Below are positions 4,499-61,981 of a stretch of DNA of 64,000 nucleotides, in pieces (position 1 is the stretch's first letter; each line of letters starts with the position of its first letter). Source of the stretch: a virus. The stretch is from IMG/VR virus record IMGVR_UViG_3300025168_000034, positions 62,001 through 126,000 of that record; one strand, given 5' to 3'. The notes beneath the pieces are model-generated. The model saw only the letters and a program-made list of their open reading frames with translations. It ran no database searches and had not been told where the DNA came from. A program made the translations under genes and the position numbers.

Positions 4499-5275
4499 TT
4501 AGTAACTATTAAGTTGTTTATAGCCAAGTATTCTAGTTGGCTTCATTATTATTTCATTCCATAATTGTGTTGCATCACCACTACAATCTTCTAGTGAGGT
4601 GCACAAATTGTCTTGCTCCCCTGGATACGCTAATCGTTCCATGCTTGCTGCTTTGTTGTTGTTGTCAGTTACGACACTCTTTACATCACTTCTAAATGCT
4701 GCAACTAGATCTCCTTCTAACTTCAATACCACATTGCTTGCTTTCTTGAAGAATGGCTTCCACTGCTTGGTAAAAGTACTCACATCATACGAATCACCTT
4801 CTTCAATACGTTGCTGAAGTCTTTGCATATTCTCTAATGTGGTAAATCTTTTTGTCACAACTTTATGTGTAGTAGATCCATATAGCGATTGTGTAAACTC
4901 TTCGTCTAACAGCACAAATGGCTCTATATCAAATCGCGAATAAAAGTACGCAATTTTAATCTGGTCAATGTTTGGAAAGTAAGGAGAAAACTCTTTTCGT
5001 AATCCCCACACCTTATGGTTTACAAAGTCTTCAATAAAGTCAAGAACATTTTTACGAGTCACTTGTGGTGCAAATCTCTTAACCTCTATGTTAAGCTGAA
5101 AGCTAAACCACTTCGATACGAGCATTGCAAGTCTTGGATCACTCTTAATCTGACCACCTCTTGTGTCTTGTCCTTTTTGTTGTAAGGCCAAAAACTCACG
5201 AGCAATATCTTCCCATTGCTGTATTGTTGCAAAGCAACTTTCGGGGTGCATATGTCCTTGTAATTGTAAAGCCAT
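4499..5275 (-). CDS. hypothetical protein, 258 aa
   Basis: No family is recognised. The protein is soluble and mostly helical, with aromatic clusters (KVWGLRKEFSPYFPNIDQIK) and a C-terminal stretch holding two Cys (NLCTSLEDCSGDATQLWNEI). It is the first gene after the CTATTTATA box at 5280-5288, which ends 4 nt before the ATG. It leads a run with the peptidoglycan-binding protein and the two leader-bearing proteins, so a structural or internal virion role is likely. That is context only. Confidence 0.65.
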   Translation of the reverse strand: MALQLQGHMHPESCFATIQQWEDIAREFLALQQKGQDTRGGQIKSDPRLAMLVSKWFSFQLNIEVKRFAPQVTRKNVLDFIEDFVNHKVWGLRKEFSPYFPNIDQIKIAYFYSRFDIEPFVLLDEEFTQSLYGSTTHKVVTKRFTTLENMQRLQQRIEEGDSYDVSTFTKQWKPFFKKASNVVLKLEGDLVAAFRSDVKSVVTDNNNKAASMERLAYPGEQDNLCTSLEDCSGDATQLWNEIIMKPTRILGYKQLNSY

Positions 5276-32835: not shown

Positions 32836-32844
32836 TATAAATAG
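32836..32844 (-). promoter_or_regulatory. late-type box CTATTTATA
   Basis: It lies 18 nt before the ATG at 32817. Confidence 0.65.
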
Positions 32845-32867: not shown

Positions 32868-33566
32868 TTAACTGCGGAAGTTTTTATAGACGTCAATAAT
32901 CGAGTCTACAATTCCATGTCTATGGCTTTTTAGTAGTTGTATCACATTAAAGCTTTTAATATTAACAAGGTGTTTACACATAAAGTCAAATCCTGAGGTT
33001 TTCTTTTCTCGAAGATCAATTTGAGCATTATCTCCACAAAAGATCACTTTACTTCCTGAGCATATTCTCGTTAGTATTAACTCAGTTTGTGTGTCTGTAA
33101 GGTTTTGTGATTCATCTGCAACTACTAAGCAATTAGTAAAATTACGACCTCGCATAAAGTTTACTGGAAGTATTTCAATCTTTCCATCTTCTACACACTT
33201 TTCGATTGCTTCTTTTTTATACAGTCTATACATGTTTTCGTAAACTGGTGCTGTAAAGGGTGCTAATTTTTGATTGATGTCTCCTGGAAGAAATCCTATA
33301 TCAGGACCTGCGCCTACGGGTGGTCTTGTTATAATGACCTTCTCTACTTCTTTTCTAAACAAAAGATCTAAAGCTACGTTGGCAGCTAATAACGACTTTC
33401 CAGATCCTGCTCTACCTTTAAGTACAGTCACGGTGTTGTTAAAAATGCTATCCTTAGCTAGTTTTTGCTCTTCGTTTAGTTGGATGTTGAACTTGATTGG
33501 GTTCTTTGGTTTACGCTTTGCTTTAAAAGTCTCTTGTGCTTCGTTTGTGCGATTATAATCTGTCAT
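32868..33566 (-). CDS. phoH: PhoH-like P-loop ATPase
   Basis: The 232-aa protein contains Walker A LKGRAGSGKSLLAANVALDL (about residues 48-67), IITRPPVGAGPDIGFLPGD, Walker B CLVVADESQNLTDTQTELIL, KVIFCGDNAQIDLREKKTSG and LLKSHRHGIVDSI. This is the complete PhoH domain; it lacks an extra N-terminal PIN or KH domain. PhoH proteins are common in marine phages and are thought to act as RNA helicase/ATPase enzymes in phosphate stress or RNA handling; their phage role is unsettled. It is a single-gene unit between neck genes and the small-gene island, with its own late box (33587-33595). Confidence 0.9.
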   Translation of the reverse strand: MTDYNRTNEAQETFKAKRKPKNPIKFNIQLNEEQKLAKDSIFNNTVTVLKGRAGSGKSLLAANVALDLLFRKEVEKVIITRPPVGAGPDIGFLPGDINQKLAPFTAPVYENMYRLYKKEAIEKCVEDGKIEILPVNFMRGRNFTNCLVVADESQNLTDTQTELILTRICSGSKVIFCGDNAQIDLREKKTSGFDFMCKHLVNIKSFNVIQLLKSHRHGIVDSIIDVYKNFRS

Positions 33567-33586
33567 GGTGTAACATTGTTGTTTTA

Positions 33587-33595
33587 TATAAATAG
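33587..33595 (-). promoter_or_regulatory. late-type box CTATTTATA
   Basis: It lies 20 nt before the phoH ATG at 33566, directly after a terminator. Confidence 0.65.
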
Positions 33596-33603
33596 TTGTG
33601 GGA

Positions 33604-33629
33604 TATAAAAAAACCCTCCGAAGAGGGTT
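33604..33629 (-). terminator. rho-independent terminator with TTCG loop
   Basis: On the minus strand AACCCTC, loop TTCG and GAGGGTT are followed by TTTTTATA. It is the downstream boundary of the small-gene island. Confidence 0.9.
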
Positions 33630-33649
33630 ATCTTATAAAGAATGGGTGT

Positions 33650-33976
33650 TTACTTCATTTCGATCATTTGTAATGGAACATTCCAACCTTGATCAAATCG
33701 ACCAGCTCCTTCTGCTTTTACAACTCCACGAGTCTTGTTGATCTTGGTTAAGATAAGATCGTGTCTGTAGCTTAGTTTTGGATGGTTAACATTACACGGA
33801 GAGCCTTCTACTAACTCTTGTTTAACTTCTGCAATTTTAGATGCTTTTCGAGTTTTTAAGATTCCAACAACATACTTGTTGATTCTCCTCAATTCTTCTG
33901 ACGACATTGCTTGTAATGCCTTTCTTGTTTCGTAGTCGTTAATGTCGACTGTTTTGTTACTGATATTCTTGTTCAT
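33650..33976 (-). CDS. hypothetical protein, 108 aa (island gene 5)
   Basis: The basic helical N-terminal half (YETRKALQAMSSEELRRINK; YVVGILKTRKASKIAEVKQE) is followed by a beta-rich second half (NHPKLSYRHDLILTKINKTR; GVVKAEGAGRFDQGWNVPLQ). That second half resembles a small SH3- or KOW-like barrel. No family is assigned. It is the last unit of the island, with its own palindromic promoter upstream (34008-34048) and a terminator after it. Its basic composition is compatible with nucleic-acid binding. Confidence 0.65.
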   Translation of the reverse strand: MNKNISNKTVDINDYETRKALQAMSSEELRRINKYVVGILKTRKASKIAEVKQELVEGSPCNVNHPKLSYRHDLILTKINKTRGVVKAEGAGRFDQGWNVPLQMIEMK

Positions 33977-34007
33977 ATTGTGATTATTTGTTATTAATTA
34001 TCTTTCT

Positions 34008-34048
34008 CTTTACATAGTAAAGATCAGGACTTTATTCCAGGATTGCAA
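34008..34048 (-). promoter_or_regulatory. island promoter 1 with palindromic operator
   Basis: On the minus strand TTG (complement of 34046-34048) is followed by N20 and GATCTTTA (34018-34025), overlapped by the perfect palindrome CTTTACTATGTAAAG (34008-34022). The same arrangement recurs at 34586-34626 and 35060-35100. Confidence 0.75.
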
Positions 34049-34052
34049 CTTT

Positions 34053-34286
34053 TTATGGAAAAACATTCTGATTTTTCAATGTATGAAAATACTCACGAAG
34101 CTTAGCAAGTCTTCTAGTAGCTGAGATATACTCCCATTCGTACTTATCCATGTTATACTCCATACATTCATCTCTCATGAAACCTTGGATGTTCTCTGCT
34201 GCACCTCTGGTAGTAGTACCCCACTCTTTTTCTATGTAATCTCTAACTCTATTAAATAGATGGTATATTCTATCTTCTTGTGTCAT
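34053..34286 (-). CDS. hypothetical protein, 77 aa (island gene 4)
   Basis: This acidic, helical and aromatic-rich protein reads HLFNRVRDYIEKEWGTTTRG, AAENIQGFMRDECMEYNMDK, YEWEYISATRRLAKLREYFH. No known fold is recognised. It lies 5 nt downstream of the 89-aa gene and shares its promoter. Small acidic early proteins of phages often bind host enzymes, but there is no direct evidence here. Confidence 0.65.
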   Translation of the reverse strand: MTQEDRIYHLFNRVRDYIEKEWGTTTRGAAENIQGFMRDECMEYNMDKYEWEYISATRRLAKLREYFHTLKNQNVFP

Positions 34287-34291
34287 ATCTC

Positions 34292-34561
34292 TTATCTTAA
34301 AGTTTGATTCTTTCTTGCGTATCTCTTAGCTCTCATATAAGCCTCTCTAGTCTCATAAGTAAAGTAATTACGACCTATGTCTGTAAACTCTCTACAATCA
34401 TGCTTGGCCCAATATCTTTGATAGAATTCTGGACCGTTACCATAATCACGATATTCCACCATCTCATCAAAGTGGATCTTCCCACCCGATAAGCCTTTGT
34501 ATTCGATAGTCTCTCGACCTTTCATCTCTTTTGTGATTGTGTATTTTGGTTTGTTTTGCAT
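34292..34561 (-). CDS. hypothetical protein, 89 aa (island gene 3)
   Basis: The protein is charged and aromatic: YTITKEMKGRETIEYKGLSG, GKIHFDEMVEYRDYGNGPEF, YQRYWAKHDCREFTDIGRNY, then a basic tail YMRAKRYARKNQTLR. A mixed alpha-beta fold is likely. No family is assigned. It is the first gene after the palindromic promoter at 34586-34626. Confidence 0.68.
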   Translation of the reverse strand: MQNKPKYTITKEMKGRETIEYKGLSGGKIHFDEMVEYRDYGNGPEFYQRYWAKHDCREFTDIGRNYFTYETREAYMRAKRYARKNQTLR

Positions 34562-34585
34562 ATCTTTTGTTTTAATTATCTTTCC

Positions 34586-34626
34586 CTTTACATAGTAAAG
34601 GTCAGGACTTTATTTCGTAATTGCAA
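34586..34626 (-). promoter_or_regulatory. island promoter 2 with palindromic operator
   Basis: On the minus strand TTG (complement of 34624-34626) is followed by N20 and GACCTTTA (34596-34603), with CTTTACTATGTAAAG at 34586-34600. The flanks, GTTGCAATT and AAAGTCCTGA, are shared with copies 1 and 3. Confidence 0.75.
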
Positions 34627-34632
34627 CCTTTT

Positions 34633-34824
34633 TTACGAAAATTTCCATAATTTTTTTTCTAATTGGTTAACTAATCCGATTGCGTCTTGAAATGCAAATC
34701 GAGCTGAGTCACTGTTTCGATTAGCTTTTGAGTGTTTACGTTTTTTTTCCATAAACTGTTTTGCAAGCTCTAACTGTTTGAGCAATGCTCGATGTTGGTT
34801 TCCTAATTCTGCGTGGTGGTTCAT
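34633..34824 (-). CDS. small helical protein, 63 aa (island gene 2)
   Basis: The protein is Lys/Asn/Gln-rich and fully helical: MNHHAELGNQHRALLKQLEL, AKQFMEKKRKHSKANRNSDS, ARFAFQDAIGLVNQLEKKLW. Its start overlaps the stop of the 74-aa gene by 4 nt (ATGA), so the two are coupled. Function is unknown. Confidence 0.65.
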   Translation of the reverse strand: MNHHAELGNQHRALLKQLELAKQFMEKKRKHSKANRNSDSARFAFQDAIGLVNQLEKKLWKFS

Positions 34825-35045
34825 CTTTCTAATATTACAAAGGTTCCAAAATGTTTATCAAATACTTGAATAAGATTTTCATAATCTCCTTCCATCATTT
34901 CTAATGCAATCTCATCTACCTGAAACTCATCTAATCCTATTTTTCTAGCCAATCTTTTTGCAGTTGCTATTAAGGAGAATGCATTACCATCCGGTCCGGT
35001 TAGATCAATTATAATTTCTTTTTGTTCTTGTTTCTTTCTAATCAT
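34821..35045 (-). CDS. conserved small phage protein, 74 aa (island gene 1)
   Basis: The core reads IIIDLTGPDGNAFSLIATAK, RLARKIGLDEFQVDEIALEM, MEGDYENLIQVFDKHFGTFV. I recognise this pattern (DLTGPDGNAF...A-K-x-LA...GDYENL-x-VF-x-x-x-FG) from small uncharacterised proteins of T4-like phages. No biochemical function is known to me. It is the first gene of the island behind promoter copy 3. Confidence 0.72.
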   Translation of the reverse strand: MIRKKQEQKEIIIDLTGPDGNAFSLIATAKRLARKIGLDEFQVDEIALEMMEGDYENLIQVFDKHFGTFVILER

Positions 35046-35059
35046 ATCTTTTTCTCTTT

Positions 35060-35100
35060 CTTTACATTGTAAAGATCAGGACAAAGATCCGAATATGCAA
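35060..35100 (-). promoter_or_regulatory. island promoter 3 with palindromic operator
   Basis: On the minus strand TTG (complement of 35098-35100) is followed by N20 and GATCTTTA (35070-35077), overlapped by CTTTACAATGTAAAG at 35060-35074. The spacer differs by one base from copies 1 and 2 but the arms are unchanged. Confidence 0.75.
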
Positions 35101-35120
35101 CAGTTTACCTAATTATTTTC

Positions 35121-35148
35121 CAAAAAAAAGCCCCTCCGAAGAGGGGCT
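35121..35148 (-). terminator. rho-independent terminator of major capsid gene
   Basis: On the minus strand AGCCCCTC, loop TTCG and GAGGGGCT form an 8-bp perfect stem followed by TTTTTTT. It separates capsid transcription from the small-gene island. Confidence 0.93.
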
Positions 35149-35171
35149 AATTAATTATGCGGTTATGCTTC

Positions 35172-36803
35172 TTACAGCACGTTTAGATCTGCAACGTTAA
35201 TCTTACCGTAGAATTCTGGTCTAGTAACAAGTTTTGCATATCTTGTCATTACACCTCTTCTTGGAGTAAAATTCTTTGGATCGTAAACAAGAGGAGTAAG
35301 CATTAATGGCACGTATGGTGCGTATACTGCTCCAGTCTCTAAGAACTGGCTTCCTCTGAATCCCATCAAGATGGTATTCTCTTGCATGTAAGGGTTTTTG
35401 TAAACATCATAAGCGTTATTAATAGCACCTACTTGTCTTACACCCATTGCATATTTCATCTTGCCTGTTCCGTCAGTCGCAGCATATCCAGGAATTGACT
35501 CAAGGATAGTTGAGATTTTTGGAGAACAAACTAAGAAGTTAGCTCCACCTCTCAGAGTCTTAGCATGGATCTCGTTAGATACTTTCTGTACTTTAGTACC
35601 TAAAGTAGCAAACCAAGTACCTTGGATATATGCTTGACCACTAAATTGTGATGCCTCGAATAGATTAGTAGCAGAGTTAAACTCTTGACCTACTTTAGCA
35701 GACCAGAAGTCTGTAGAAGCAGCTGATGAAATCAACATGTCTAAGATCTCTAAGTCAATCTCCATAGAGACATACTCAGATAACATAGAAGTCAACTCAC
35801 CTTCAGCATCTACTGAATGGTATGCGTTAAGGTCTTGAGCGAACTCAGGAGTCCAGCTTGCTTTCAACTTACGAGTCTTAGCAGTTACCGGAATACTTCT
35901 CATTTGCAATTCAATGCTTGGGATATTCAAGTCTGTATCCAAGTCTCTGTTTGTAGCAGATACTGGTTTAGCCTCGAAGTCACCTCTATCATCATTCGTA
36001 GGTTGTACTGAGAATGAAATTGCTGCACGGAAAGGACTAAGTGTCACATGTGTAGCTGGTGCTAATGATTCAGATGCTACAACGAATTGTACGTTTCCAC
36101 CAACGATTTGAGTAAACTTTTCAATGACGTCTAACTCAACTGAACCAGATAGTAGTTGGAATGATCTAACTGCTTCTTTGTCTAATCCAGTTCCGTTAGA
36201 AGAGGAAAGAGATGCAGTAGGAACAATTACTGTATGGTAATTAGCAATTGATGCTGTAAAATCACCATCGTAAAGTACAGTGTCAACACCTACAGATCCA
36301 GTGTGGATTGTATGTCCAGTTGTTGCAATTTGGTTGTTAATTGAATATCCAAATCGACCTGCTCCGTAAAGTCCATCAGATGGATCAGCAGTAGTGTCAG
36401 TGACACCTTGTAGTGTACCAGTTTGGTTTTTCTCCGTTGGAGCGAATCCAAATGGATTTTTATCGTTAGCGTATTTGAAATCTAGGTAGAATACTAGTCC
36501 TGATGGTAAGTTCATTGGTTGAACGCTGACAAATTCCTTTGCTGCGATCTCCGCATAAACTCTCCTGATCAAAGGAAGAGCTACTCCTGTCCACTGCTCA
36601 TATCCGGCACCTGCAGTACCAGCTGTTGTAGCAGACCCCTCTTTCAAAAGCTGTTTTGCTTGGTTCTCTAAAAGAACAGACACTGTTGCCTCTTCTTGTT
36701 TGTCACCAAGTCCTTCTAATAGGCCCGTTCTGGACCATTTGGAGATTAAAGCCTTATTTTCGTGGCTTCTGTTTGTTTCTCCCATTCCTTCAAATAAATT
36801 CAT
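35172..36803 (-). CDS. 23: major capsid protein (gp23)
   Basis: The 543-aa protein is close to T4 gp23 (521 aa). The delta-region ends QAKQLLKEGSATTAGTAGAG, with an L-K-E site at residues 53-55, a good match to the prohead-protease rule that matures gp23. The shell core includes LPLIRRVYAEIAAKEFVSVQ, PMNLPSGLVFYLDFKYANDK and a C-terminal LTPLVYDPKNFTPRRGVMTR, YAKLVTRPEFYGKI. It forms the capsid hexamers. It follows the scaffold gene and ends with the strongest terminator in the window. No perfect late box precedes it, so it may rely on read-through from upstream or a divergent promoter. Confidence 0.93.
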   Translation of the reverse strand: MNLFEGMGETNRSHENKALISKWSRTGLLEGLGDKQEEATVSVLLENQAKQLLKEGSATTAGTAGAGYEQWTGVALPLIRRVYAEIAAKEFVSVQPMNLPSGLVFYLDFKYANDKNPFGFAPTEKNQTGTLQGVTDTTADPSDGLYGAGRFGYSINNQIATTGHTIHTGSVGVDTVLYDGDFTASIANYHTVIVPTASLSSSNGTGLDKEAVRSFQLLSGSVELDVIEKFTQIVGGNVQFVVASESLAPATHVTLSPFRAAISFSVQPTNDDRGDFEAKPVSATNRDLDTDLNIPSIELQMRSIPVTAKTRKLKASWTPEFAQDLNAYHSVDAEGELTSMLSEYVSMEIDLEILDMLISSAASTDFWSAKVGQEFNSATNLFEASQFSGQAYIQGTWFATLGTKVQKVSNEIHAKTLRGGANFLVCSPKISTILESIPGYAATDGTGKMKYAMGVRQVGAINNAYDVYKNPYMQENTILMGFRGSQFLETGAVYAPYVPLMLTPLVYDPKNFTPRRGVMTRYAKLVTRPEFYGKINVADLNVL

Positions 36804-45257: not shown

Positions 45258-45680
45258 CTATTTTATAAATAGTACTAGAATAGTTGTTAAAATTGCTGCT
45301 CCACAACCTGCTCCTAACCAACGCTGATTGCGTTTAAGTTTTTCATTTTGTCTTTGCAAATCTTCTAGTCCAGTAACATATATGTTGATTTGTTGAGATT
45401 GAGCATTAACCTGCTTTCTGCATAATATTGATTTTTCTGTGCTATGTTGTATTAGACTATCCTGCTTTGCTATTTTTTCATTAGCTAGCTCTAAAAGCAA
45501 GTAAGTGTAGTCAAACATTTCAACACACTGATCATACTTAATTAGATCTTCTGCTATTTGTTGTGCTGTACTGTATGGTAAAACTACGACAGAATCTTCG
45601 TTATTTTGGGTATCGGTCTGCGAAAAACTGGTCAAGGTCAGTGACAGTAAAACGCTCAATATCATTAAGCTCTTCTTCAT
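45258..45680 (-). CDS. spanin-like exported coiled-coil membrane protein
   Basis: From the ATG at 45680 the protein begins MKKSLMILSVLLSLTLTSFS, a clear signal peptide, followed by a coiled coil (QDSLIQHSTEKSILCRKQVN; DLQRQNEKLKRNQRW) and a C-terminal membrane helix (LGAGCGAAILTTILVLFIK). No lipobox Cys is visible at the cleavage site. The frame opens at 45719 but the signal peptide argues for 45680. Its start lies within the 3' part of the previous gene in another frame. The pair matches the overlapping i-spanin/o-spanin style of lysis genes in topology, but a classical Rz1 would be a lipoprotein. Confidence 0.6.
   Translation of the reverse strand: MKKSLMILSVLLSLTLTSFSQTDTQNNEDSVVVLPYSTAQQIAEDLIKYDQCVEMFDYTYLLLELANEKIAKQDSLIQHSTEKSILCRKQVNAQSQQINIYVTGLEDLQRQNEKLKRNQRWLGAGCGAAILTTILVLFIK
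45264..45272 (-). promoter_or_regulatory. late-type box CTATTTATA
   Basis: It ends 6 nt before the terminase ATG at 45257, inside the end of the spanin-like gene. Confidence 0.6.
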
Positions 45681-45971: not shown

Positions 45972-47000
45972 CTACTCGCCTTTGGCTTTGTAGTTTTTGT
46001 CAACGTAGTTGAAGAATTCTTTCTTCTTCTTATCACTCAAACCTTTTGGTGATTTTACGCCAAACTTGTCCATTGCCGATTTGAAAAACTTTTGGTATTC
46101 GGTATCTTCTTTTAATCGGTTTACGATTGATTCTGTTTTTGTGTTCATGTCGTTTTCTTTAAGATTTTTCAAAAGTCTGTCGTCTAAAAAGTCAATTTTA
46201 TCCGCCATCTGTCCTACTAATCCATATACTTTACTCCAGATTTCTTCTGGTACTTTTGGTGGTTTGTTTGCTCCTAAAATTCTATCAAGCTCATTAACAT
46301 GTTTATATACTTGATCGTAAAATGTTTTGTATTTTGGATCTATTGCTTCGTTCATAGTGCCTCCTAGATGATTCATTATTTCTTTTTTAAATTCTTCTAA
46401 TTCTTGATCGTTAAGATTTCTATATACTTTTTCTCGTAAATTTTTAATGAGTTTAGATGCTTCGGTTAAACCTTTACCCTCGTTGAGAGACTCACTAATT
46501 CTCTTTCCCAACATTCCTAATCTGTCTAAGTCTTTTAAATCTTTTATATACTCATCCGTTGCTGCAAGAATCACTCCCATCTTATCCTTTTGATTTTCGC
46601 CACTATAAAAGTTAAGCTCAGTCACTCTTGGATTGAATTTTTCTCCTCCTGGCTTATCCTTGAAGTTAGAGTTGTAATATTGAGTTTGATGTACTGCGAA
46701 TGTTTGTCCAGAAGTTTCCGTAAATGTGTGATATTGAACATGTACAAACATTGGAGCATATTGTCCCATTCTTTTTTTGATAGGACTTGCATCAGAAGCT
46801 TTCAAATTCGCTTCAGCTTTTGACATGCTCTTTACAGCGTTTGGAAAATATTTTGTAATAAACTCCATATCTTCGCTGTCAGGCTTCTTCTGCATAGCAT
46901 CTGCTATGACCTTTGCTCCGGAGAAGTCATCGTCTGTATATTCTTTTAGAGGTGTCATTGCTTTGACTGTGCTTTCTATTAGTTTGTCCAGTTTTTTCAT
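45972..47000 (-). CDS. putative internal virion protein, 342 aa
   Basis: The leader-like N-terminus MKKLDKLIESTVKAMTPLKE has L-I-E and L-K-E sites. A mixed domain follows with MFVHVQYHTFTETSGQTFAV and YYNSNFKDKPGGEKFNPRVT. Further possible protease sites are SLNEGKGLTEAS and TMNEAIDP in the middle. The C-terminal part is helical and basic (KKKKEFFNYVDKNYKAKGE). No family is recognised. Its last bases overlap the Pro/Glu-rich gene upstream. I infer a packaged protein processed into several pieces by gp21. Confidence 0.6.
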   Translation of the reverse strand: MKKLDKLIESTVKAMTPLKEYTDDDFSGAKVIADAMQKKPDSEDMEFITKYFPNAVKSMSKAEANLKASDASPIKKRMGQYAPMFVHVQYHTFTETSGQTFAVHQTQYYNSNFKDKPGGEKFNPRVTELNFYSGENQKDKMGVILAATDEYIKDLKDLDRLGMLGKRISESLNEGKGLTEASKLIKNLREKVYRNLNDQELEEFKKEIMNHLGGTMNEAIDPKYKTFYDQVYKHVNELDRILGANKPPKVPEEIWSKVYGLVGQMADKIDFLDDRLLKNLKENDMNTKTESIVNRLKEDTEYQKFFKSAMDKFGVKSPKGLSDKKKKEFFNYVDKNYKAKGE

Positions 47001-47401
47001 CGTAAGCTGTCTTCTTTTATTCTTTGTAGGATTGTTAGCTTGTCCTGGTTTCCGTAACCAAAACTCTCTAACATGTCAACCACTATTGCAATTATGTCAG
47101 TTTGATCCACTTCAGCAGTGGCGTCTTTGAGTTTCTTAATATAAAGATCAGTAAGATTTTGTAGTTCCTCATCAAGACCTGGCTCTTCCTCTTCTTCCGG
47201 CTCTTCGGTCGGTTCCTCAGTCGGTTCCTCAGTCGGTTCTTCAGGTTTAGCATCCGGCTCATCAGAAACGTCAGCTGCTGCTTCTTCCTCTTCCTCTTCG
47301 GGTGGTGCACCGCCTGCTCCTTCCATAAGAGCTTTGTGCAATTCTCGTTTTACGAGCTCTCTAATTAAGGCTTGTTGTAGTTGTTTTTTTGTACGCTTCA
47401 T
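46997..47401 (-). CDS. putative internal protein with PTEE repeats, 134 aa
   Basis: The N-terminus MKRTKKQLQQALIRELVKRE, LHKALMEGAGGAPPEEEEEE has a basic leader with L-M-E-G at residues 25-28, a good prohead-protease site. A low-complexity PEEPTEEPTEEPTEEPEEEE segment (repeat EPTE) follows, then a helical C-terminus. The EPTEE repeat is encoded by tandem 12-nt units near 47205-47240. The basic leader resembles those of other proteins in this cluster. Role unknown. Confidence 0.6.
   Translation of the reverse strand: MKRTKKQLQQALIRELVKRELHKALMEGAGGAPPEEEEEEAAADVSDEPDAKPEEPTEEPTEEPTEEPEEEEEPGLDEELQNLTDLYIKKLKDATAEVDQTDIIAIVVDMLESFGYGNQDKLTILQRIKEDSLR
47200..47242 (-). repeat. tandem 12-nt coding repeats (EPTE)
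   Basis: Four near-identical units of the plus-strand form TCGGTTCCTCAG encode E-P-T-E. The perfect units could change copy number by slippage. Confidence 0.75.
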
Positions 47402-47805
47402 TTAATTACGTTTTTAAATTTAACATCATCTCCTGAGAAGTTCTTTTTGTCTTCTGAGTCGAACATTATGCCTTCAAGAGTGGCGTGTCCATCTTTTTCT
47501 TTTCGCTTAATCTTACAGATTGTTGCATCTAGCTTTTCTAATCCATTAAGAACATACACTAATCCAAACATGCACTGCTTCTTAGAACATTTAGCAACAA
47601 TATATGCTTTAGATACTACCAAGCTCATATCTCCAAAATTGGTAAGATCGGCTGTGTATATTTTTACATCATCCTTTACACCAACATAATCAAATAGTAC
47701 GTCGTATCCGTCACTAAGTTCGCCAAACTTACGAACATAATCTAACCACTCTGTTCCGTCGTTTTCATTAATTTGTTGTAAGGGCATTAAATCTCTAAGC
47801 TTCAT
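47398..47805 (-). CDS. putative internal virion protein, 135 aa
   Basis: The N-terminus MKLRDLMPLQQINENDGTEW contains Q-I-N-E-N, an I-x-E site, after a short basic leader. The body is alpha-beta (YDVLFDYVGVKDDVKIYTAD; CMFGLVYVLNGLEKLDATIC) and includes four Cys or so without a clear zinc pattern. Its end overlaps the next gene by 4 nt. No family is assigned. The leader suggests capsid targeting. Confidence 0.6.
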   Translation of the reverse strand: MKLRDLMPLQQINENDGTEWLDYVRKFGELSDGYDVLFDYVGVKDDVKIYTADLTNFGDMSLVVSKAYIVAKCSKKQCMFGLVYVLNGLEKLDATICKIKRKEKDGHATLEGIMFDSEDKKNFSGDDVKFKNVIK

Positions 47806-47808
47806 ATT

Positions 47809-48699
47809 TTATTTTTTAATTCCAGCTCTATGTTGGAATGTTTCTTTTAAGTGTGATTCTACATCTTTACTGTAGGGTGGAAGAACATCTGCTGTTCCTT
47901 TTTCTAAATATTTTACAACCGCATTCACCTTTTCTGCATCAATAACCGGCATATCCTTTCTTTCTGGAGCACCTTGCATTTTTTGTTTTACAAGTTTTCC
48001 GGCATTGTCTGCCATAATAGCCATTCCTTTTTCCGAATCTCCATCAGCTCCTGGAACCTTTCCTAATGCTACTTTTACTTCTTCCGATGACAGATGAGGC
48101 CATTGTTTTAAACCTTGTTCTGTACCATCTTTCAAAGCATACTTAATTGCATTTTGTACTTTATCTCCAGTAAAGTTTGCTACGTCACCTTTTCCTTTGT
48201 TTCCTACATCAATACCCAACTTACCCTTCGTCATTGCGTTGAGTGCTGTTATAAGTTGTTGGCCTGGTAAGTCTAACTTTGTTATAGCTACTTTAGCTCC
48301 TGGATAAAGAAGAGTTGCTGCTGCCCATCTATGGTGTCCATCCATAATAAAATCGTCATTAGAAACTATAGCTTCCATATTTGCTAAGTCAGGAGCGCCG
48401 TTTTTTGCCTTTGCTTCTTTAAAGTCATTAAACGCATATCCTAAAGCAAATGCTACTGCTTTTGAAACAATTACTTCCTTTTGTGCAGGCTTGAGCTGGC
48501 TTACTGGGACTGCATCTGGACCACCATTAATAATATCATCCTCTTTGTCGCCATCCTCTAATCCACCTCCAACTGCATCTCCTGCTAGATCTTTATCCAT
48601 CTTACTTAGCCCAACTGCTTTTGGATTGTTGAATACATCCGCTTCAGATAAAATATCTTTACGCATGTTATTGATAGTATTGCCTAACGACTTCTTCAT
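47809..48699 (-). CDS. ParB/sulfiredoxin-fold protein with capsid-targeting-like leader
   Basis: From the ATG at 48699 the protein starts MKKSLGNTINNMRKDILSEA, with I-L-S-E-A as a possible cleavage site. The domain follows: VPVSQLKPAQKEVIVSKAVA, DDFIMDGHHRWAAATLLYPG, AKVAITKLDLPG. D-G-H-H-R-W is the hallmark of the ParB/Srx fold (the His and Arg act on nucleotides or DNA). A Lys-rich C-terminal region follows. The frame extends to 48732, but a late box 3 nt before 48699 decides the start. It may be a packaged DNA- or nucleotide-acting enzyme. Confidence 0.7.
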   Translation of the reverse strand: MKKSLGNTINNMRKDILSEADVFNNPKAVGLSKMDKDLAGDAVGGGLEDGDKEDDIINGGPDAVPVSQLKPAQKEVIVSKAVAFALGYAFNDFKEAKAKNGAPDLANMEAIVSNDDFIMDGHHRWAAATLLYPGAKVAITKLDLPGQQLITALNAMTKGKLGIDVGNKGKGDVANFTGDKVQNAIKYALKDGTEQGLKQWPHLSSEEVKVALGKVPGADGDSEKGMAIMADNAGKLVKQKMQGAPERKDMPVIDAEKVNAVVKYLEKGTADVLPPYSKDVESHLKETFQHRAGIKK

Positions 48700-48702
48700 A
48701 CT

Positions 48703-48711
48703 TATAAATAT
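48703..48711 (-). promoter_or_regulatory. late-type box ATATTTATA
   Basis: It ends 3 nt before the ATG at 48699 and overlaps the stop region of the preceding gene. Confidence 0.55.
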
Positions 48712-49184
48712 TACCATTTTCTGCAAGACCAATATCTTGCTTTAGTTTTTGGTCCTGGATTATCACAATTATGTCTTGCTCTGAACGATTTACGTCTTGC
48801 GGGATTACTCTTTTTTATCTTCATTCCTTTTTGACCAAAATTTACTTTTTTTGCTTTTATAGTACCGTCTGCATTCTTTTTTCCAGAATTTACATGTACT
48901 TTAAATTTCTTAACATCGCCACGCATTATTTTGTTAAGCTTAACAGTACGTCCATTATACTTAGCTTCTTGAAATAATACTGGTTCTGAGTGTTCTATTA
49001 TTTCAAGTCTCAAACCTTCATTTCGGTAAACAACGGATTCTTTGGCATTAATCTTCTTGCCAGCTTTGACTGCAGCCTTATACGCTTTAGAGCCTTTAGG
49101 AGATGATTTTCCTCCTCTAGCTTTTTTAGCTCTAATGTTAGCCCACAATCCTTTATTCTCCTTTAGGTTGTTCTTTTTGTTCAT
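48711..49184 (-). CDS. very basic virion-associated protein, 157 aa
   Basis: The protein is Lys/Arg-rich throughout. It starts MNKKNNLKENKGLWANIRAK, with L-K-E-N as a possible prohead-protease site, then KARGGKSSPKGSKAYKAAVK. It ends RKSFRARHNCDNPGPKTKAR, YWSCRKW. The compact end with two Cys is shared by small basic proteins of marine T4-like phages that I have seen described only as hypothetical. High charge fits DNA binding or condensation in the head. It overlaps the zinc-finger gene by 32 nt. Confidence 0.65.
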   Translation of the reverse strand: MNKKNNLKENKGLWANIRAKKARGGKSSPKGSKAYKAAVKAGKKINAKESVVYRNEGLRLEIIEHSEPVLFQEAKYNGRTVKLNKIMRGDVKKFKVHVNSGKKNADGTIKAKKVNFGQKGMKIKKSNPARRKSFRARHNCDNPGPKTKARYWSCRKW

Positions 49185-49686
49185 TAATTTTATCCTTTAA
49201 CTCACCGACAACACCTTCTAACTTTTCGATTTCTTTATCTATCATGTCGCTAATTAGTGCGTTGTCTGGGTTAGCCCATTTTTCAATTTTTCCTTTTTCT
49301 GAAACATGTGTGTTCTCAGCTGAGCTTTCTTTAAACTCTTGCAAGCCGGCTTTAACATCTCTCAAATACGATTTAGCATTTTCATACTTTTTCATCGCAT
49401 TAAATTCTTTTTTTAACCCTTTTGCTCTCAACTTATGTTGTTCATCAACAACACAATTAAAACACTTTCGATCAGTTTTCCAAAATTTGGCATCTAATCG
49501 ATTGTTCATCTTCTTACCACAACATGGACATGCTAACGGGACTAAAAAGTCTTTTCTAGCTTTATCCATTCTTGTAACTGTTTTTTTTATGCCGTTTTTG
49601 ATTGTCCACGTTTTACCGCTTTCCTCCCAAACATCACCCTCATGACGCTCGACATATTTGTTTCTCGTAACCTTAATTTTTTTCAT
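49153..49686 (-). CDS. zinc-finger protein, 177 aa
   Basis: Residues about 52-80 carry LACPCCGKKMNNRLDAKFWK, TDRKCFNCVV, that is CxCC...CxxC, a four-Cys zinc ribbon. The N-terminus is strongly basic (MKKIKVTRNKYVERHEGDVW). The C-terminus is a coiled coil (MIDKEIEKLEGVVGELKDKI) ending INEQKEQPKGE. It sits among packaged-type proteins. Nucleic-acid binding is likely; the specific role is unknown. Confidence 0.65.
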   Translation of the reverse strand: MKKIKVTRNKYVERHEGDVWEESGKTWTIKNGIKKTVTRMDKARKDFLVPLACPCCGKKMNNRLDAKFWKTDRKCFNCVVDEQHKLRAKGLKKEFNAMKKYENAKSYLRDVKAGLQEFKESSAENTHVSEKGKIEKWANPDNALISDMIDKEIEKLEGVVGELKDKINEQKEQPKGE

Positions 49687-56419: not shown

Positions 56420-59400
56420 TTAACAGTTTATATACGACAATTCGTTTTTTCTGTCTATTGTTATAATATTGTCAACCATATCTCTTACTACATCAATGTG
56501 TGAGATAACTAAACTAAACCTGAAAGTGTCCTTCATATTAGTAAATAGTGTGTGCATTGAGTTTAGATTGGTGCTATCTAAAACACCTAATCCCTCATCA
56601 ATAGCAATAAAATCAGGCTTCGGTAGGTTTGTGATCTTAATTAATGCTATACGCAAAGCTATAGAAGATAAGAATTTTTCCATCCCAGAACTCAACTCTA
56701 ACGGCCACTTTTCGTCTTCATAACATATGAATCCATTTATATTCTTGCCATCTGTTTCTAATGCAATCTCAAAATCAATTATCTGATTTAGTATAGTGTT
56801 GGCGTGTTGCTCTATGAATGGAACAGCCTTTGATATAAGCTGAAATGGTATGCCATCCTTATACATAGCTTTGCAGTAGATATCATATATTGCTTGATCT
56901 TCTACTAACTGAGTCATGTGTTGGATTGTTTTTGTACTCTCTTCAATTGTCTCCTCAGCTACACACTTTTTACCATAGAAATCACGTACAGACTTGTTAG
57001 TTTTCTGTACGACTATAGTTTGTTTATTTTTTTCTATGTTCAACTTACTTAACTTGTCATTCGTTTTATTGTTACGTTCTATGACTTTTACAGCCTTGTT
57101 GTATTGTTTGATTTGCGATTCGGTTTCTGCAATATTGACTTCGCATGCTGCTATGTCTTTATTAAGACGTTCATACTCAGACTCAGCATCACCTTTATCA
57201 GCTCGTGCGCTATTATAGTCAGTTGCAATGTCTCTTATGTAGTCCGCTTGTGCTTGTATTTCTTTATTGTTTTCGATAAAATCAACGATTCGCATACGCT
57301 TTTGTAAAAAGTCAGCTACTGTTGTTTTATCTTCCTCAAGCTCTAGTTTCGTCTTCATTGCATCTTGTACAAACACATTTGACACGCAGTGCTTGCAGTT
57401 CGGATCATACTCATGTTTATTAAGTTTTTCAAGTTTTGACAACTTGTTTTTGATTGTAATCTTTAACTCTCCCAACTCCGTATCTAGCTCAATCTTTTCT
57501 AGTACCTTTGCTTTGTGGGTAGTGTATAGATCCTGATCAAAGCTGTTCAATGCACGCTCCTTATCATACTCTAATCCAGTTAATCTCTTCTTAGACTCCT
57601 CCCACTTCTTTGTCGATACTTTTTTGTCTTCTTGCAAAGATGTCAATTCTTGTTCGTATTCTTCAAGTGATTCTGATACATCAGAAATATCTATACTATC
57701 TTCTTCACACGGCTCCAATTGCTCAGATAACACTAACATTTTATCGATCTGATCATCAAGTATAGCTTTCTCTTTTTTATGCACCGCTATAGCATCGTCA
57801 TGCTTTATAGTGTATTCATCTAAAGACTTTTCTGCATCACCTAGTTTAGTTTCAAAGTCTTGCTTTTGGTACTCTTCTAGTATAATTGATGCATTTCTAT
57901 TGCTTCTATTGGCAAGGTCATGGAGTTGATCAAATATAGTAACATCTAAGAAGTTGGCTAGCAGATCCTTTCTTTCGCTCTGAGTCTTGTCAATAAAGTT
58001 GGAGTTGTTCTGTTGCAGTGATAATGCAGTTAGGATAAAGTCATCAAACGTACCTACATAGGATTGTATGATCTTACCAGTGTCACGTCTCATCTCACCA
58101 TTCAGTGACACCTTGTTTCCATCCTCGTTGATGTACCAAAAGTCAATCTCCACACGCAATCTACCCTTTAACGCACCACTACGGTACTTGAAGGCTTTTT
58201 TGTGAATGAAATAGTCCAATCCTTCGAGCTCAAAGTTGAAGGTACACTCGAATGATTCTTTCTTGCGATTAAGTACTTGGTCAGCTTTACTAGCTCTGAA
58301 CGAGTGATCGAAGAGGCAGAAGCATAGAGCGTCTAATATGGCAGACTTGCCGGCATGGTTAGGTGCAAATATACCACAAGTACCCATCTTAGTGCTGAAG
58401 TCAATGGTGTTGTCCTCTCCATAGCTGAACATGTTGCTAAACTCGAACTTCTTAGGTTTCCAGATTACACTGCGAGCTACCTCAGGCTGCTGCAACTCAC
58501 CATTAAGCTTCTTATTGATTTCTAAAACTTTGGCAATCGAGTCTTCATCTACACCTTCATCGGTTAGGTATTCTGTTAGTAGTTGGTTCTGGTATTGTAT
58601 GTTACGTACGTCTCCTTGGTCTAGTTGTGTACCTAGATGTTCATCACCGTTCCGGCCACCTTTGTCGAGTTTGATAACTATTGCATCTCGGTTTTTGTAC
58701 TTCTTACGTATCGTTGCAAGAACACGCTTCATCTGAGCCGCATCTGTTTTCATTGTCTTGATGCGTAGTCTTGTGTGCTTTGTGATAGGTAGATTGTCTG
58801 GCAATACACCATCAGTAATCTCTAACGTATAATACCCGTATTCGTTAGGTAAATCGTGAAACTCACATTTGATATCTTTTCGGTCTCGTACATCAATGAT
58901 ACCATATCCATGTCCTTCATACGCTTCTCCAAAGTTTTGTTGTACAGTTGAGCCTGGATAGAACATCAACGGATTTGCTGTAGATAATGTTTGACGTTTA
59001 TGTATATCTCCTAGTGGTGCTACATCAAAACCAGCAAACGTATCCCAGCTCAATCCATGTTCAATATTCATACCACTATCCACTTTACTATTGGCAACTG
59101 TGCCATGATACAAAGCCATTAGTAAATCGTATTGGTCTGGATTATCTATCTTATCGTATGTGATATATTTGTCAGTTTCACCTAATAAAGAAAATACACT
59201 GAGTCCTATTTTCTGATCTGGTGTGTATATATCATACAATCCTGAGTCTCTTAGGTACCAAAGGTTTCGATGTTTCAGTCCTTGAACGATTGGAGTTAAT
59301 GCATCTAATCTGTGTGGATTATTTAGGTTTGCATCGTGGTTTCCTGTGATCACAAATGTGGGTCTTCTATCTGCCAATCTTTTGAATAGGTAGGATACCA

Positions 59401-59611
59401 TGCTGATAAGCTCTGGACTCATCTCTGTTTTAGCATGCACAATATCACCTCCAACTGTTACGATGGTGTTAGGAGAACACTTGTCTAATTCCTCAAACAT
59501 TCTGTCAAACACCTGCTTAAACTCTTTGTGCCGTTTCCAGTTCCTAATGTGTACATCAGCGATGTGAAAGATGTAATCAACATTGTTGGGTAGTGTAATT
59601 CCTTGGCTCAT
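56420..59611 (-). CDS. 47-46: fused gp47-gp46 recombination nuclease (Mre11-Rad50/SbcDC)
   Basis: One 1063-aa frame holds both partners. Residues 14-380 are the Mre11/gp47 phosphoesterase: IFHIADVHIRN (14-24), VGGDIVHAK (53-61), ITGNHDANL (88-96), ALYHGTV and PLGDIHKRQ (199-207). From about 390 it continues as Rad50/gp46: FSNMFSYGEDNTIDF, Walker A FAPNHAGKSAILDAL (414-428), a coiled coil with the zinc hook CKHC (739-742), signature LSSGMEKFL (973-981), Walker B DFIAIDEGLG (1000-1009) and SLVISHID. T4 has two separate genes. It resects DNA ends for recombination-dependent replication with UvsX. Confidence 0.93.
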   Translation of the reverse strand: MSQGITLPNNVDYIFHIADVHIRNWKRHKEFKQVFDRMFEELDKCSPNTIVTVGGDIVHAKTEMSPELISMVSYLFKRLADRRPTFVITGNHDANLNNPHRLDALTPIVQGLKHRNLWYLRDSGLYDIYTPDQKIGLSVFSLLGETDKYITYDKIDNPDQYDLLMALYHGTVANSKVDSGMNIEHGLSWDTFAGFDVAPLGDIHKRQTLSTANPLMFYPGSTVQQNFGEAYEGHGYGIIDVRDRKDIKCEFHDLPNEYGYYTLEITDGVLPDNLPITKHTRLRIKTMKTDAAQMKRVLATIRKKYKNRDAIVIKLDKGGRNGDEHLGTQLDQGDVRNIQYQNQLLTEYLTDEGVDEDSIAKVLEINKKLNGELQQPEVARSVIWKPKKFEFSNMFSYGEDNTIDFSTKMGTCGIFAPNHAGKSAILDALCFCLFDHSFRASKADQVLNRKKESFECTFNFELEGLDYFIHKKAFKYRSGALKGRLRVEIDFWYINEDGNKVSLNGEMRRDTGKIIQSYVGTFDDFILTALSLQQNNSNFIDKTQSERKDLLANFLDVTIFDQLHDLANRSNRNASIILEEYQKQDFETKLGDAEKSLDEYTIKHDDAIAVHKKEKAILDDQIDKMLVLSEQLEPCEEDSIDISDVSESLEEYEQELTSLQEDKKVSTKKWEESKKRLTGLEYDKERALNSFDQDLYTTHKAKVLEKIELDTELGELKITIKNKLSKLEKLNKHEYDPNCKHCVSNVFVQDAMKTKLELEEDKTTVADFLQKRMRIVDFIENNKEIQAQADYIRDIATDYNSARADKGDAESEYERLNKDIAACEVNIAETESQIKQYNKAVKVIERNNKTNDKLSKLNIEKNKQTIVVQKTNKSVRDFYGKKCVAEETIEESTKTIQHMTQLVEDQAIYDIYCKAMYKDGIPFQLISKAVPFIEQHANTILNQIIDFEIALETDGKNINGFICYEDEKWPLELSSGMEKFLSSIALRIALIKITNLPKPDFIAIDEGLGVLDSTNLNSMHTLFTNMKDTFRFSLVISHIDVVRDMVDNIITIDRKNELSYINC

Positions 59612-60531
59612 ATGTTCATTTTATATTTTATCAAATCAAAAAAGCTAAGCTGTTGAGCTTGCTCTAACATGCTTAGCATGCCTTTGTGTCCAGTTTCATT
59701 TGGATCTTTATCTTTCAAGTCTGTGTAGTACACCTCTATGCCATTGTTGATGAAGTACTCTATCTCTTCCAGACTATCCTTATATGCGTCTGGATCCAAG
59801 GCTAGGTAAAGCTTAGGAGGTCGCTCACTTAAAATACGTGATCTTAGTGTTGGAAGTATCTTTTTACCAAACAATGGAATCACGTTACGCTTTGTTGATA
59901 TTGCATCGAATGCACCCTCCACTATTACAATAGGCTCTTTCCAGTTTATATGGCTACCAAATCCAATAACATCCTTTGATACTGGAGGATTCTTGTGTTT
60001 ATGGTCTGTATCATAGAAGCTTCTACCAGCATAGTAGTTTAGGAATCCATCTTCATCAAAGCTAGGCACTACTAACATGCCTCCATAAGGGCCATCTTCA
60101 CAATATCCTATCTCATACTTGACTATATCAATAGGAGAAAGCCCTCTCTTATGTACTGCATAATGTATAGCGTTTCTATAGTGTGGAGTGTTCCTTTGGT
60201 TGTGTAGTGGTTTGTATTGCTCTGGCAAAGAGTATAGTTTGTTGGATTTCTTCTTTTGTGTTGTAACCTTTACATCACCATAGACTTCTCGTATTTTAGG
60301 GAAAACATACTCAGGAGCTTTGCTTTTCTTTAGAAGTGAGTTCACAGTCTGACCACGCGCATTGCATACCCAACAATGCCATTTTTGCGTCAAGACATTA
60401 ACTTGCAGCTTCTTTTTGTGATGATTACAGAATGGACAGTGAAAGCTCTTTTCTCCATTTTTATGTGGCGTAGATCTTCCTAAATGTCCATGTAGTACCT
60501 TCATCACAACCTCAGTTTGTGATACATTCAT
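59608..60531 (-). CDS. 61: DNA primase (gp61/DnaG type)
   Basis: The 307-aa protein has a zinc ribbon KSFHCPFCNHHKKKLQVNVL, TQKWHCWVCNARG (C-x-x-C...C-x-x-C) at residues 29-65. A TOPRIM core follows: IVIVEGAFDAISTKRNVIPL, FGKKILPTLRSRI and PKLYLALDPDAYKDSLEEIE, with the acid pairs for metal. It makes RNA primers in partnership with the gp41 helicase. The early-type promoter ends 4 nt from its ATG. The 4-nt overlap with the gp47-46 gene couples the two. Confidence 0.9.
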   Translation of the reverse strand: MNVSQTEVVMKVLHGHLGRSTPHKNGEKSFHCPFCNHHKKKLQVNVLTQKWHCWVCNARGQTVNSLLKKSKAPEYVFPKIREVYGDVKVTTQKKKSNKLYSLPEQYKPLHNQRNTPHYRNAIHYAVHKRGLSPIDIVKYEIGYCEDGPYGGMLVVPSFDEDGFLNYYAGRSFYDTDHKHKNPPVSKDVIGFGSHINWKEPIVIVEGAFDAISTKRNVIPLFGKKILPTLRSRILSERPPKLYLALDPDAYKDSLEEIEYFINNGIEVYYTDLKDKDPNETGHKGMLSMLEQAQQLSFFDLIKYKMNI

Positions 60532-60535
60532 AGAC

Positions 60536-60566
60536 TAAATATACGGAAAACTATTCGTTTAACCAA
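60536..60566 (-). promoter_or_regulatory. early-type promoter, TTG-N20-TATATTTA
   Basis: On the minus strand TTG (complement of 60564-60566) is followed by 20 nt, ending CCG, and TATATTTA. The primase ATG follows 4 nt later. The TTG lies within the end of the endonuclease gene. Confidence 0.7.
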
Positions 60567-60958
60567 CTATTTGGTATCTCTTTGTTACTGTAAATAAAGT
60601 TGTTTTTTACACACCAATCTGCGTATGTGGTTTTTGACCCTTTTCTAATCTTGTTGTTTGCATTTTGAAACACAAACCTTATATCTAACTCAGGATGCTG
60701 ACTTTTTATTAAGACATGCTTCTGCCTATCTGCTAATACAAATCTACCCTTTGTCTCAATAAAAATTCCATTTGGAAGTTTGAAGTCGGGAGTGTATGTG
60801 TGGTTGGTAGCTGGTTTTGAGTATGATATTTTGTGTTGTTCATACTCACCACTGACACCACGACTCTTGAGTGATTTATCTATATCCTCCTCTAAGCCAC
60901 TCCTAAACCCATGCTTCTTAGCTATTGCTCTTTTGCTTGATTTTTTTCTTCTGGCCAT
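60551..60958 (-). CDS. T7-type endonuclease I (Holliday junction resolvase)
   Basis: The 135-aa protein follows T7 gp3 closely: FRSGLEEDIDKSLKSRGV, ATNHTYTPDFKLPNGIFIET, KGRF, QHPELDIRFVFQNANNKIRK, GSKTTYADWC. Catalytic residues of T7 (Glu20, Asp55, Glu65, Lys67) correspond to Glu23, Asp58, Glu68 and Lys70 with the same spacing. The N-terminus adds a basic arm (MARRKKSSKRAIAKKHG). It resolves branched replication intermediates before packaging, a job done by gp49 endonuclease VII in T4. It overlaps the SpeD-like gene by 37 nt. Confidence 0.93.
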   Translation of the reverse strand: MARRKKSSKRAIAKKHGFRSGLEEDIDKSLKSRGVSGEYEQHKISYSKPATNHTYTPDFKLPNGIFIETKGRFVLADRQKHVLIKSQHPELDIRFVFQNANNKIRKGSKTTYADWCVKNNFIYSNKEIPNSWLNE

Positions 60959-61317
60959 AACTGTTTTATTTTGTAGTTTCGATCGAATAACTTAGCTGAT
61001 GTTTCTTTCATTCCGTACAGACTGATTACCAAATCTATACTATCCTTCTCGAAGGTCTTGCATGAATAAATATCTAGTTGATAGTCCAAACTATCGTCCC
61101 ACGTATGTATAGCAATGTGTGATGTTGTAATGATACCAACTCCAGATACTCCTGGATATTCGTTGGGTTCGTATCCTACAACTGGATTCATAGGCATTCC
61201 TTCTACATAACGCATATCAAGAGCTATTACCAATTTATCAATCAAATCCTTCACTTGATCTGTTGTAAGCTTTTCGCTAAGCGTTCCCTTGGATATGAGG
61301 TGTTTGTGGTCTAACAT
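60922..61317 (-). CDS. speD: pyruvoyl-dependent decarboxylase of the SpeD family
   Basis: The 131-aa protein contains YPGVSGVGIITTSHIAIHTW, DDSLDYQLDIYSCKTFEKDS. The pyruvoyl-forming Ser66, the catalytic His71 and Cys86 have the spacing (+5, +20) of AdoMet decarboxylase from Thermotoga. The residue before the Ser is Thr instead of the usual Glu, which could change self-processing. SpeD makes decarboxylated AdoMet for spermidine; some homologues are instead arginine or ornithine decarboxylases. Cyanophages also carry speD. Substrate here is open. It lies between a hypothetical gene and endonuclease I. Confidence 0.85.
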   Translation of the reverse strand: MLDHKHLISKGTLSEKLTTDQVKDLIDKLVIALDMRYVEGMPMNPVVGYEPNEYPGVSGVGIITTSHIAIHTWDDSLDYQLDIYSCKTFEKDSIDLVISLYGMKETSAKLFDRNYKIKQLWPEEKNQAKEQ

Positions 61318-61318
61318 G

Positions 61319-61981
61319 TTAGTAAACTTTTAAAAATGATAGCATTTTAGGTTCGTGCAAATATTCTAAGTGATCAATTCCAAAGTACTTTGCTTTAGTC
61401 TTGGACTGCTCATACTCGTCAAAACTGTCTTCCGCAATGAGTGGTTTGAGATCTGCATATACCTGCTCCCAATCTTGGTTAAGAATTAGATCTTCTAAAA
61501 AGACAACATGTTGCTTGTATAACTCAAAATCGTGAAAGTCGTGTTCGATGTGCATTAATTCAAAAACCTTGCCATCTTCTATCCAATCGATACAAAAGTC
61601 AGCCATATACTTAGGTTTAATGTTAACTAACTTTTGGAGACGTTTGTTGTGTTTTGCAAACTCTTTAAGTTGTTCTAAAGCTTCGCCAGCGTATCCGTAT
61701 CTGGTGTTTAGGTGGCAGTGGTCTAAGAAGATGTGTGCGTGTGGCACGTCTTGAGACATCCAGTCTTGAAAACATGCTGAGGCGTCTGTTGGACGTCCAG
61801 GTACGAGTATGTGTCCAGGAATGTTTGACTGTTTGTGATACTCTCCCTCTACGTAAGTTAGCTCATAGCCAATACGATCGAAAAAGTCTGGAATAATCAT
61901 TTTATCAAAGACGGTTTCATCTTCTAAAGGTTTTGTAATATATGGATAATCGACTAGTTTGTAATTAAGTTTATTTATCAT
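61319..61981 (-). CDS. hypothetical protein, 220 aa
   Basis: No family is recognised. Possible metal-binding His/Asp clusters stand out: QDVPHAHIFLDHCHLNTRYG, MHIEHDFHDFELYKQHVVFL. The N-terminal part has DKMIIPDFFDRIGYELTYVE. It looks like a compact alpha-beta enzyme fold with acidic pI. It is 1 nt upstream of the SpeD-like gene and overlaps the fibre gene by 11 nt. A role beside SpeD in small-molecule metabolism is possible but unproven. Confidence 0.62.
   Translation of the reverse strand: MINKLNYKLVDYPYITKPLEDETVFDKMIIPDFFDRIGYELTYVEGEYHKQSNIPGHILVPGRPTDASACFQDWMSQDVPHAHIFLDHCHLNTRYGYAGEALEQLKEFAKHNKRLQKLVNIKPKYMADFCIDWIEDGKVFELMHIEHDFHDFELYKQHVVFLEDLILNQDWEQVYADLKPLIAEDSFDEYEQSKTKAKYFGIDHLEYLHEPKMLSFLKVY

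Follow-up and report, generated by a model that had tools for sequence, protein, structure and literature searches.

A 17-bp dyad, YCTTTACNNNGTAAAGR, lies over the −7 element and presumed start of seven promoters in the genome of an evidently T4-like phage. It is probably an operator, at which a dimeric repressor would control one subclass of early-type promoters with Bacteroidetes-like −33 and −7 elements. Three of the seven promoters fall in the window analysed here, a stretch of 64,000 nucleotides (positions 62001–126000 of the 165,609-bp virus record, hereafter G000), within an island of small genes between the genes for the major capsid protein gp23 and PhoH. The set of palindromic units is real, well conserved and wider than the original prediction had seen, and from it we infer the mechanism.

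Palindromic promoters in an insulated island

The island occupies the minus strand, with open reading frames (ORFs) of 74, 63, 89, 77 and 108 aa. The five short genes, two TTCG-loop terminators and three palindromic units of the form TTG-N20-GAYCTTTA listed in the original prediction are all present (window coordinates):

35129..35148, minus strand: TTCG-loop terminator 3′ of gp23, bounding the island upstream; stem of 8 bp, T run
35070..35100, minus strand: promoter 1, TTGCA (−33 type), N18, GATCTTTA (−7 type); PWM score 33.8
35059..35075, minus strand: 17-bp dyad 1, T CTTTAC AAT GTAAAG A; exact, outer pair T-A
34821..35045, minus strand: 74-aa ORF; PHROG 1933, function unassigned in PHROGs
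34633..34824, minus strand: 63-aa ORF; without informative family match
34596..34626, minus strand: promoter 2, TTGCA, N18, GACCTTTA; PWM score 39.0
34585..34601, minus strand: 17-bp dyad 2, C CTTTAC TAT GTAAAG G; exact, outer pair C-G
34292..34561, minus strand: 89-aa ORF; without informative family match; counterpart in relative G001 behind the same promoter type
34053..34286, minus strand: 77-aa ORF; without informative family match
34018..34048, minus strand: promoter 3, TTGCA, N18, GATCTTTA; PWM score 37.1
34007..34023, minus strand: 17-bp dyad 3, T CTTTAC TAT GTAAAG A; exact, outer pair T-A
33650..33976, minus strand: 108-aa ORF; without informative family match; 89% identical in G001
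33612..33629, minus strand: TTCG-loop terminator bounding the island downstream; stem of 7 bp, T run
33587..33595, minus strand: late-type promoter CTATTTATA of PhoH, directly past the second terminator and outside the island

The GTTGCA...GAYCTTTAC-NNN-GTAAAG units stand 5′ of the 74-, 89- and 108-aa ORFs, with TTGCA-N4-YG as the fuller promoter consensus. The exact palindrome CTTTACNNNGTAAAG occurs in the window only at 34008, 34586 and 35060, each time with TTG-N20 before it. The outer C-G pair of dyad 2 is compensatory relative to the T-A of dyads 1 and 3.

Searches of Pfam and PHROGs gave no informative family match for four of the five island proteins and, for the 74-aa protein, only a PHROG of unknown function; this protein shares 59.5% identity with one of Methylophilales phage Melnitz. 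Structure models of the 108-aa protein (pLDDT 41) and of a conserved 96-aa protein of the proposed regulon (pLDDT 44), both predicted from two-row alignments, were unusable.

The upstream terminator (35148–35129) folds at −16.3 kcal/mol, a value reached by 0 of 200 shuffles, and the downstream one (33629–33612) at −15.8 kcal/mol (z −4.5 versus shuffles). Rfam returned sub-threshold matches only for the island, two of them over the terminators. The motif CTATTTATA occurs 11 times in the window against 1.34 expected (other sites include 32836–32844 and 45264–45272), always on the minus strand and never within the island, and its count over the whole genome is 25 on the minus strand versus 1 on the plus strand. 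Strand-biased and upstream of structural genes, it is probably the late promoter of this phage. Because terminators flank the island, and CTATTTATA is absent inside it but present ahead of PhoH, insulation and separate control of the island are well-supported predictions, in line with the earlier description of a module embedded in late genes but shielded from them.

Seven sites in one register across the genome

A search of the 165.6-kb genome for CTTTAC-N3-GTAAAG, which had been proposed with the original prediction, returned seven exact copies, all at promoters (G000 positions 4790, 14913, 54663, 55097, 96008, 96586 and 97060; three in the window and four outside). The reversed control pattern gave none, and a first-order Markov model predicts 0.016 by chance. 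Among the 46 inverted repeats of 6-3-6 geometry in G000, CTTTAC is the sole recurring arm. All seven palindromes have TTG exactly 20 nt ahead of GAYCTTTA or GTTCTTTA, share one orientation on the coding strand and are followed by an ATG 10–34 nt past the dyad. That an operator-like dyad covers the −7 element and presumed start, first proposed for the three island copies, therefore holds in the same TTG-N20 register at 7/7 sites.

Beyond the island, the palindromes precede genes for a 712-aa protein, a UPF0227-type alpha/beta hydrolase (E 6e-8), and proteins of 269 and 123 aa. The palindrome marks a set of seven promoters and is not specific to the island. The idea of a regulator dedicated to the island loses its support, because the unit sits at all seven of these promoters.

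Two promoter classes in one genome

A weight matrix built only from positions ahead of the right arm of the palindromic promoters matched 22 sites on the minus strand of G000 against 2 on its plus strand; a shuffled sequence gave 1. Beside the seven palindromic promoters stand plain ones without a dyad, of the form TTGCA-N4-CGA-...-TATATTTA/TATAGTTA, and ordinary TTG-N20-TAnnTTTA promoters lacking the dyad occur in the same genomes as the palindromic units. Across G000, its relatives G001 and G010, and the isolated Flavobacterium phage immuto, the 68 sites with a TAnn −7 box in this register never exceed 4 of 6 dyad pairs, and 17 of the 19 G[AT]YCTTTA sites have 5–6. Against the operator reading, G010 has two GACCTTTA promoters that lack the dyad and two in which its outer pair is mismatched. 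Two plain promoters of G000 (8607 and 74092) have plain counterparts at the orthologous genes of G001 (117343 and 5316), and a 139-aa gene has a dyad in G001 versus a degenerate site in G000. Class membership thus mostly follows the gene. That two classes coexist in one genome speaks for an extra layer of regulation rather than a chance feature, and the split predicts different expression of the two in this uncultured clade.

In immuto (MW353175.1, L031–L034), TTG-N20-[TG]AnnTTTA occurs 37 times on the coding strand versus 9 times on the other, the same plan as promoter 1; clear sites read TTGC...TTTCN-TATATTTAGGTATCAATAATTAAAAC-ATG. The sites provide immuto, an isolated phage, and its uncultured relatives with a concrete promoter consensus, apparently of early type and previously undescribed. 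A search of immuto for the palindrome found none. Immuto is a relative that keeps the promoters without the palindrome, a pattern that the original prediction had counted against itself. Many of the 37 sites are followed by RGTATCAATAATTAAAA, and most lie 5′ of small genes. Two marine contigs, L185 (~6862) and L186 (~1098), have the same promoter plan with another dyad, ATTTAA-GTA-TTAAAT, in exactly the same register; this dyad may serve as an operator with a different specificity, or may be an AT-rich chance match.

The housekeeping (sigma-ABfr) promoter of Bacteroidetes and Flavobacterium has TTTG at −33 and TAnnTTTG at −7 (PMC6847099). The phage units resemble it in their TTG at about −33, spacer of about 20 nt and AnnTTT core at −7. 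They differ in that their boxes end in A, not G, and in a strong TTGCA at −33 with a conserved YG 4 nt on; the plain class reads TAnnTTTA, and the palindromic class has G at −12, leaving both T-12 and G-5 of the consensus unmatched.

Because of this weak −7 box, the main rival to a repressor is a positive factor. The palindrome would then belong to the promoter, as a −7/initiator variant that a phage-modified RNA polymerase, or else a dimeric phage activator or sigma-like factor, recognises, and its promoters would form a 'middle' class that is switched on. The G in place of T at −12, a poor match to TAnnTTTG, speaks against repression and could mean such a positively controlled class, and the extra conserved promoter bases (TTGCA-N4-YG, with an invariant G at −25) are as expected of a second factor. 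We nevertheless judge this reading unlikely. Both the genomes with palindromic units and immuto have conserved promoters of the same plan that lack the dyad; an activator bound from −9 to +6 would be in the way of the polymerase; and G000 has no MotA homologue. The likeness to T4 MotA middle promoters lies in a second class of promoters within a T4-like phage, but the MotA family is absent from G000 and the dyad covers the start, where MotA has an activator box near −30.

Conservation of the dyad

By pattern and protein searches, the exact unit was recovered 19 times, in six related contigs including G000 (G000 7, G001 6, G002 1, G010 2, L028 2, L029 1); a further contig, L027, is a near-identical fragment of G000. 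The 122-kb G001 has no one-mismatch site beside its six exact units, and G010 has two units with one outer mismatch beside its two exact ones. In an alignment of 17 units, to which the two exact G010 units were added, the 12 arm bases are invariant, and the spacer and the 3-nt centre vary (TAT, AAT, TAC, AAC, CAT, ATA, CAA, AAA). The pair just outside the arms covaries (T-A in 7, C-G in 7, mixed in 2; Fisher p = 0.010, or 0.015 with G010 added), although these p-values are optimistic because the units share ancestry. Owing to this covariation, we take the dyad to span 17 bp and its half-sites to be separated by one helical turn. Scans with a free arm are the fairer test, because exact-arm search patterns favour intact arms; with the right arm free, the same relatives were recovered, and the arm was intact in all but the divergent L072/G010, which has both kinds.

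Orthologous promoters retain the dyad although the surrounding bases have diverged. It precedes the 712-aa gene in G000, G001, L029 and G010, a MoxR-type AAA_5 gene in G001 and G010, and the 74-aa island gene in both G000 and L028. The hydrolase gene has it in G000 and also, as far as the sequence reaches before the contig end (TTACTACGTAAAG), in G001. The upstream region of a distant homologue of the 712-aa protein (34%, L210) has no dyad, so the dyad appears confined to the clade. It is also absent from Mel-JY01, and LR756508 has two one-mismatch matches only.

Pattern matches at L017, L019, L021–L023 and L026 were discarded because they seem to be chance matches, inside genes or without promoter context, as were most further loci from wider pattern scans, likewise apparent chance matches. 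Separately, a MoxR-type AAA+ ATPase and a conserved 706–712-aa protein are found with palindromic promoters in two divergent phages (G001 106964–108103 and 111395–113515; L194, L195). The latter protein is likely, on weak evidence, a VWA/CobT-like partner of the ATPase.

A candidate operator regulon

The −7 element of F. johnsoniae runs from −12 to −5, and transcription starts 4–5 nt further on (PMC6847099). If this borrowed spacing holds in the phage, the 15-bp dyad would extend from about −9 to +6 with the start in its centre. A start-centred dyad is the classical position for a steric repressor. A homodimeric DNA-binding protein, probably phage-encoded, would bind the two half-sites, occupy roughly −10 to +7 and obstruct RNA polymerase at every palindromic promoter at once; these promoters would themselves be early. 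The regulon in G000 would comprise the five-gene island and four other units, and relatives would place the MoxR-type ATPase and its likely VWA-like partner in it.

Profiles for MotA (PF09114), HTH_3 and RHH_1 found no match in G000, a contig that is possibly incomplete and in which a regulator may have another fold; the helix-turn-helix protein anticipated by the original prediction is absent at the level of HTH_3. Further scanned proteins included no repressor or DNA-binding regulator. A 99-aa protein at L005:2189–2488 gave a weak Arc-like match (E 0.038). Since no regulator was found, the repressor is something we infer. The Phage_integrase profile likewise had no match in G000 and matched 14/14 control genomes. 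The original prediction of a jointly regulated early or lysogeny-like module thus divides: a co-regulated, non-late set stands, and the lysogeny-like part is unsupported because integrase, HTH_3 and RHH_1 matches are all missing from G000. We raise, tentatively, the possibility that a dimeric regulator of an unrecognised family, without detectable HTH_3 or RHH_1 homology, gates one of two early promoter classes genome-wide in a T4-like, apparently non-integrating lineage, and that accessory islands join its regulon by carrying the operator-promoter.

The regulator might also be a host protein whose site the phage exploits. Host factors often control phage early promoters, and the searches for a phage regulator (MotA, HTH_3, RHH_1, scanned proteins) gave none. 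We hold this to be improbable: in 148 genomes from the order of one flavobacterial MAG, which may differ from the true host, the 17-bp motif occurs 12 times versus 9 for the reversed control. This lack of enrichment weakly favours a phage protein.

Slightly less probable still is an RNA hairpin at the mRNA 5′ end that acts on stability or translation. The transcribed strand could fold a 7-bp hairpin with a 3-nt loop, and the outer pair covaries. Yet folding barely beats shuffles (z about −1.1 to −1.7), and the arms are fixed in sequence, not merely in pairing. Moreover, with the start in the dyad centre, the left arm overlaps the −7 element and would be untranscribed at the 4–5-nt spacing (PMC6847099), so a DNA operator is the more likely of the two.

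The repressor reading has known counterparts. Mycobacteriophages of cluster A have one repressor regulator with many sites across the phage genome (PMC9283540), and the G000 palindromes are similarly many sites for presumably one regulator. Cluster A operators and stoperators are asymmetric, bound by a monomer and in many cases stop elongation, whereas the G000 sites are symmetric and lie only on promoters. The element shares with temperate repressor systems its multiple conserved, symmetric operator-like sites on promoters (7 in G000, 19 in the clade). The temperate phage phiC31, which has a known repressor, carries many near-identical inverted repeats of about 17 bp at early promoters genome-wide. 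G000 resembles it in having such repeats at early-type promoters scattered over one phage genome, but differs in that neither repressor nor integrase was detected. In kind the system would be familiar, a regulon of many phage operators at early promoters that are borne on portable cassettes. A literature search on temporal gene control or transcription data in Bacteroidetes T4-like phages found no paper. Should the dyad prove to be an operator, the idea of one common global repressor in a phage that seems lytic could be tested, accessory genes preceded by the motif could be placed in the regulon from their sequence alone, and the operator would offer a handle for fishing out its regulator.

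The island as variable cargo

The gp23–phoH interval (window 33566–35172; L034–L044) is a variable cargo site across relatives. When relatives are anchored on PhoH, L037 and L039 show an empty gap. L041 has a hydrolase homologue plus one further gene there, L043 has different small genes with a plain promoter ahead of them, and L036/G001 has a palindromic island partly shared with G000. By this comparison, the island is accessory cargo at a variable site.

PMC4503421, which cites Arbiol 2010 and Comeau 2014, describes early-type cassettes termed PeSLs that are inserted among late genes in T4-like phages, and reports gene shuffling by terminator-promoter cassettes in these phages. The island matches this account in its small genes at a variable site within late genes, and in part in having an early-type promoter near a stem-loop terminator: the terminators flank the island as a whole, and only promoter 1 lies directly after one. 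The PeSL description in the available part of PMC4503421 includes no operator dyad, unlike the island. Because the cargo variability fits the PeSL picture, lysogeny is not needed to explain it. Such shuffling (PMC4503421), together with the similarity of the leaders past the dyad (GAAAGATAATTAA), might suggest that the copies are recent duplications of one promoter cassette whose dyad has no regulatory role, but this is very improbable given that spacer and centre have diverged within and between genomes while the 12 arm bases stayed fixed and the outer pair changed in a compensatory way.

The phage and its host

The window protein at 35172–36803 is the gp23 major capsid protein (Pfam, E 3e-75), and its best annotated relatives are from Flavobacterium phages (immuto, 52%). 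Of 205 called genes, 195 lie on the minus strand. Judged by the gp23 match, immuto as closest relative and this strand bias, the phage is T4-like and related to Immutovirus. Its hosts are probably marine flavobacteria.

Several other features of the genome were noted. Homologues of FolE, QueD and QueE with a DpdA-like protein (G000 57362–62346) suggest 7-deazaguanine modification of the phage DNA, and genes for GroEL, GroES and an Hsp20-like chaperone are consecutive at 46873–49310. Many proteins encoded at 1–15 kb of G000 (L005) and 0.8–13 kb of G002 (L052) have a common N-terminal peptide, for example MIKLKDILNE, MKLKNILLE or MIKLAEILNE, ending in (I/L)-x-E. These peptides resemble the T4 gp21 prohead-protease site on capsid-targeting sequences, and the proteins are possibly a battery of packaged internal proteins.
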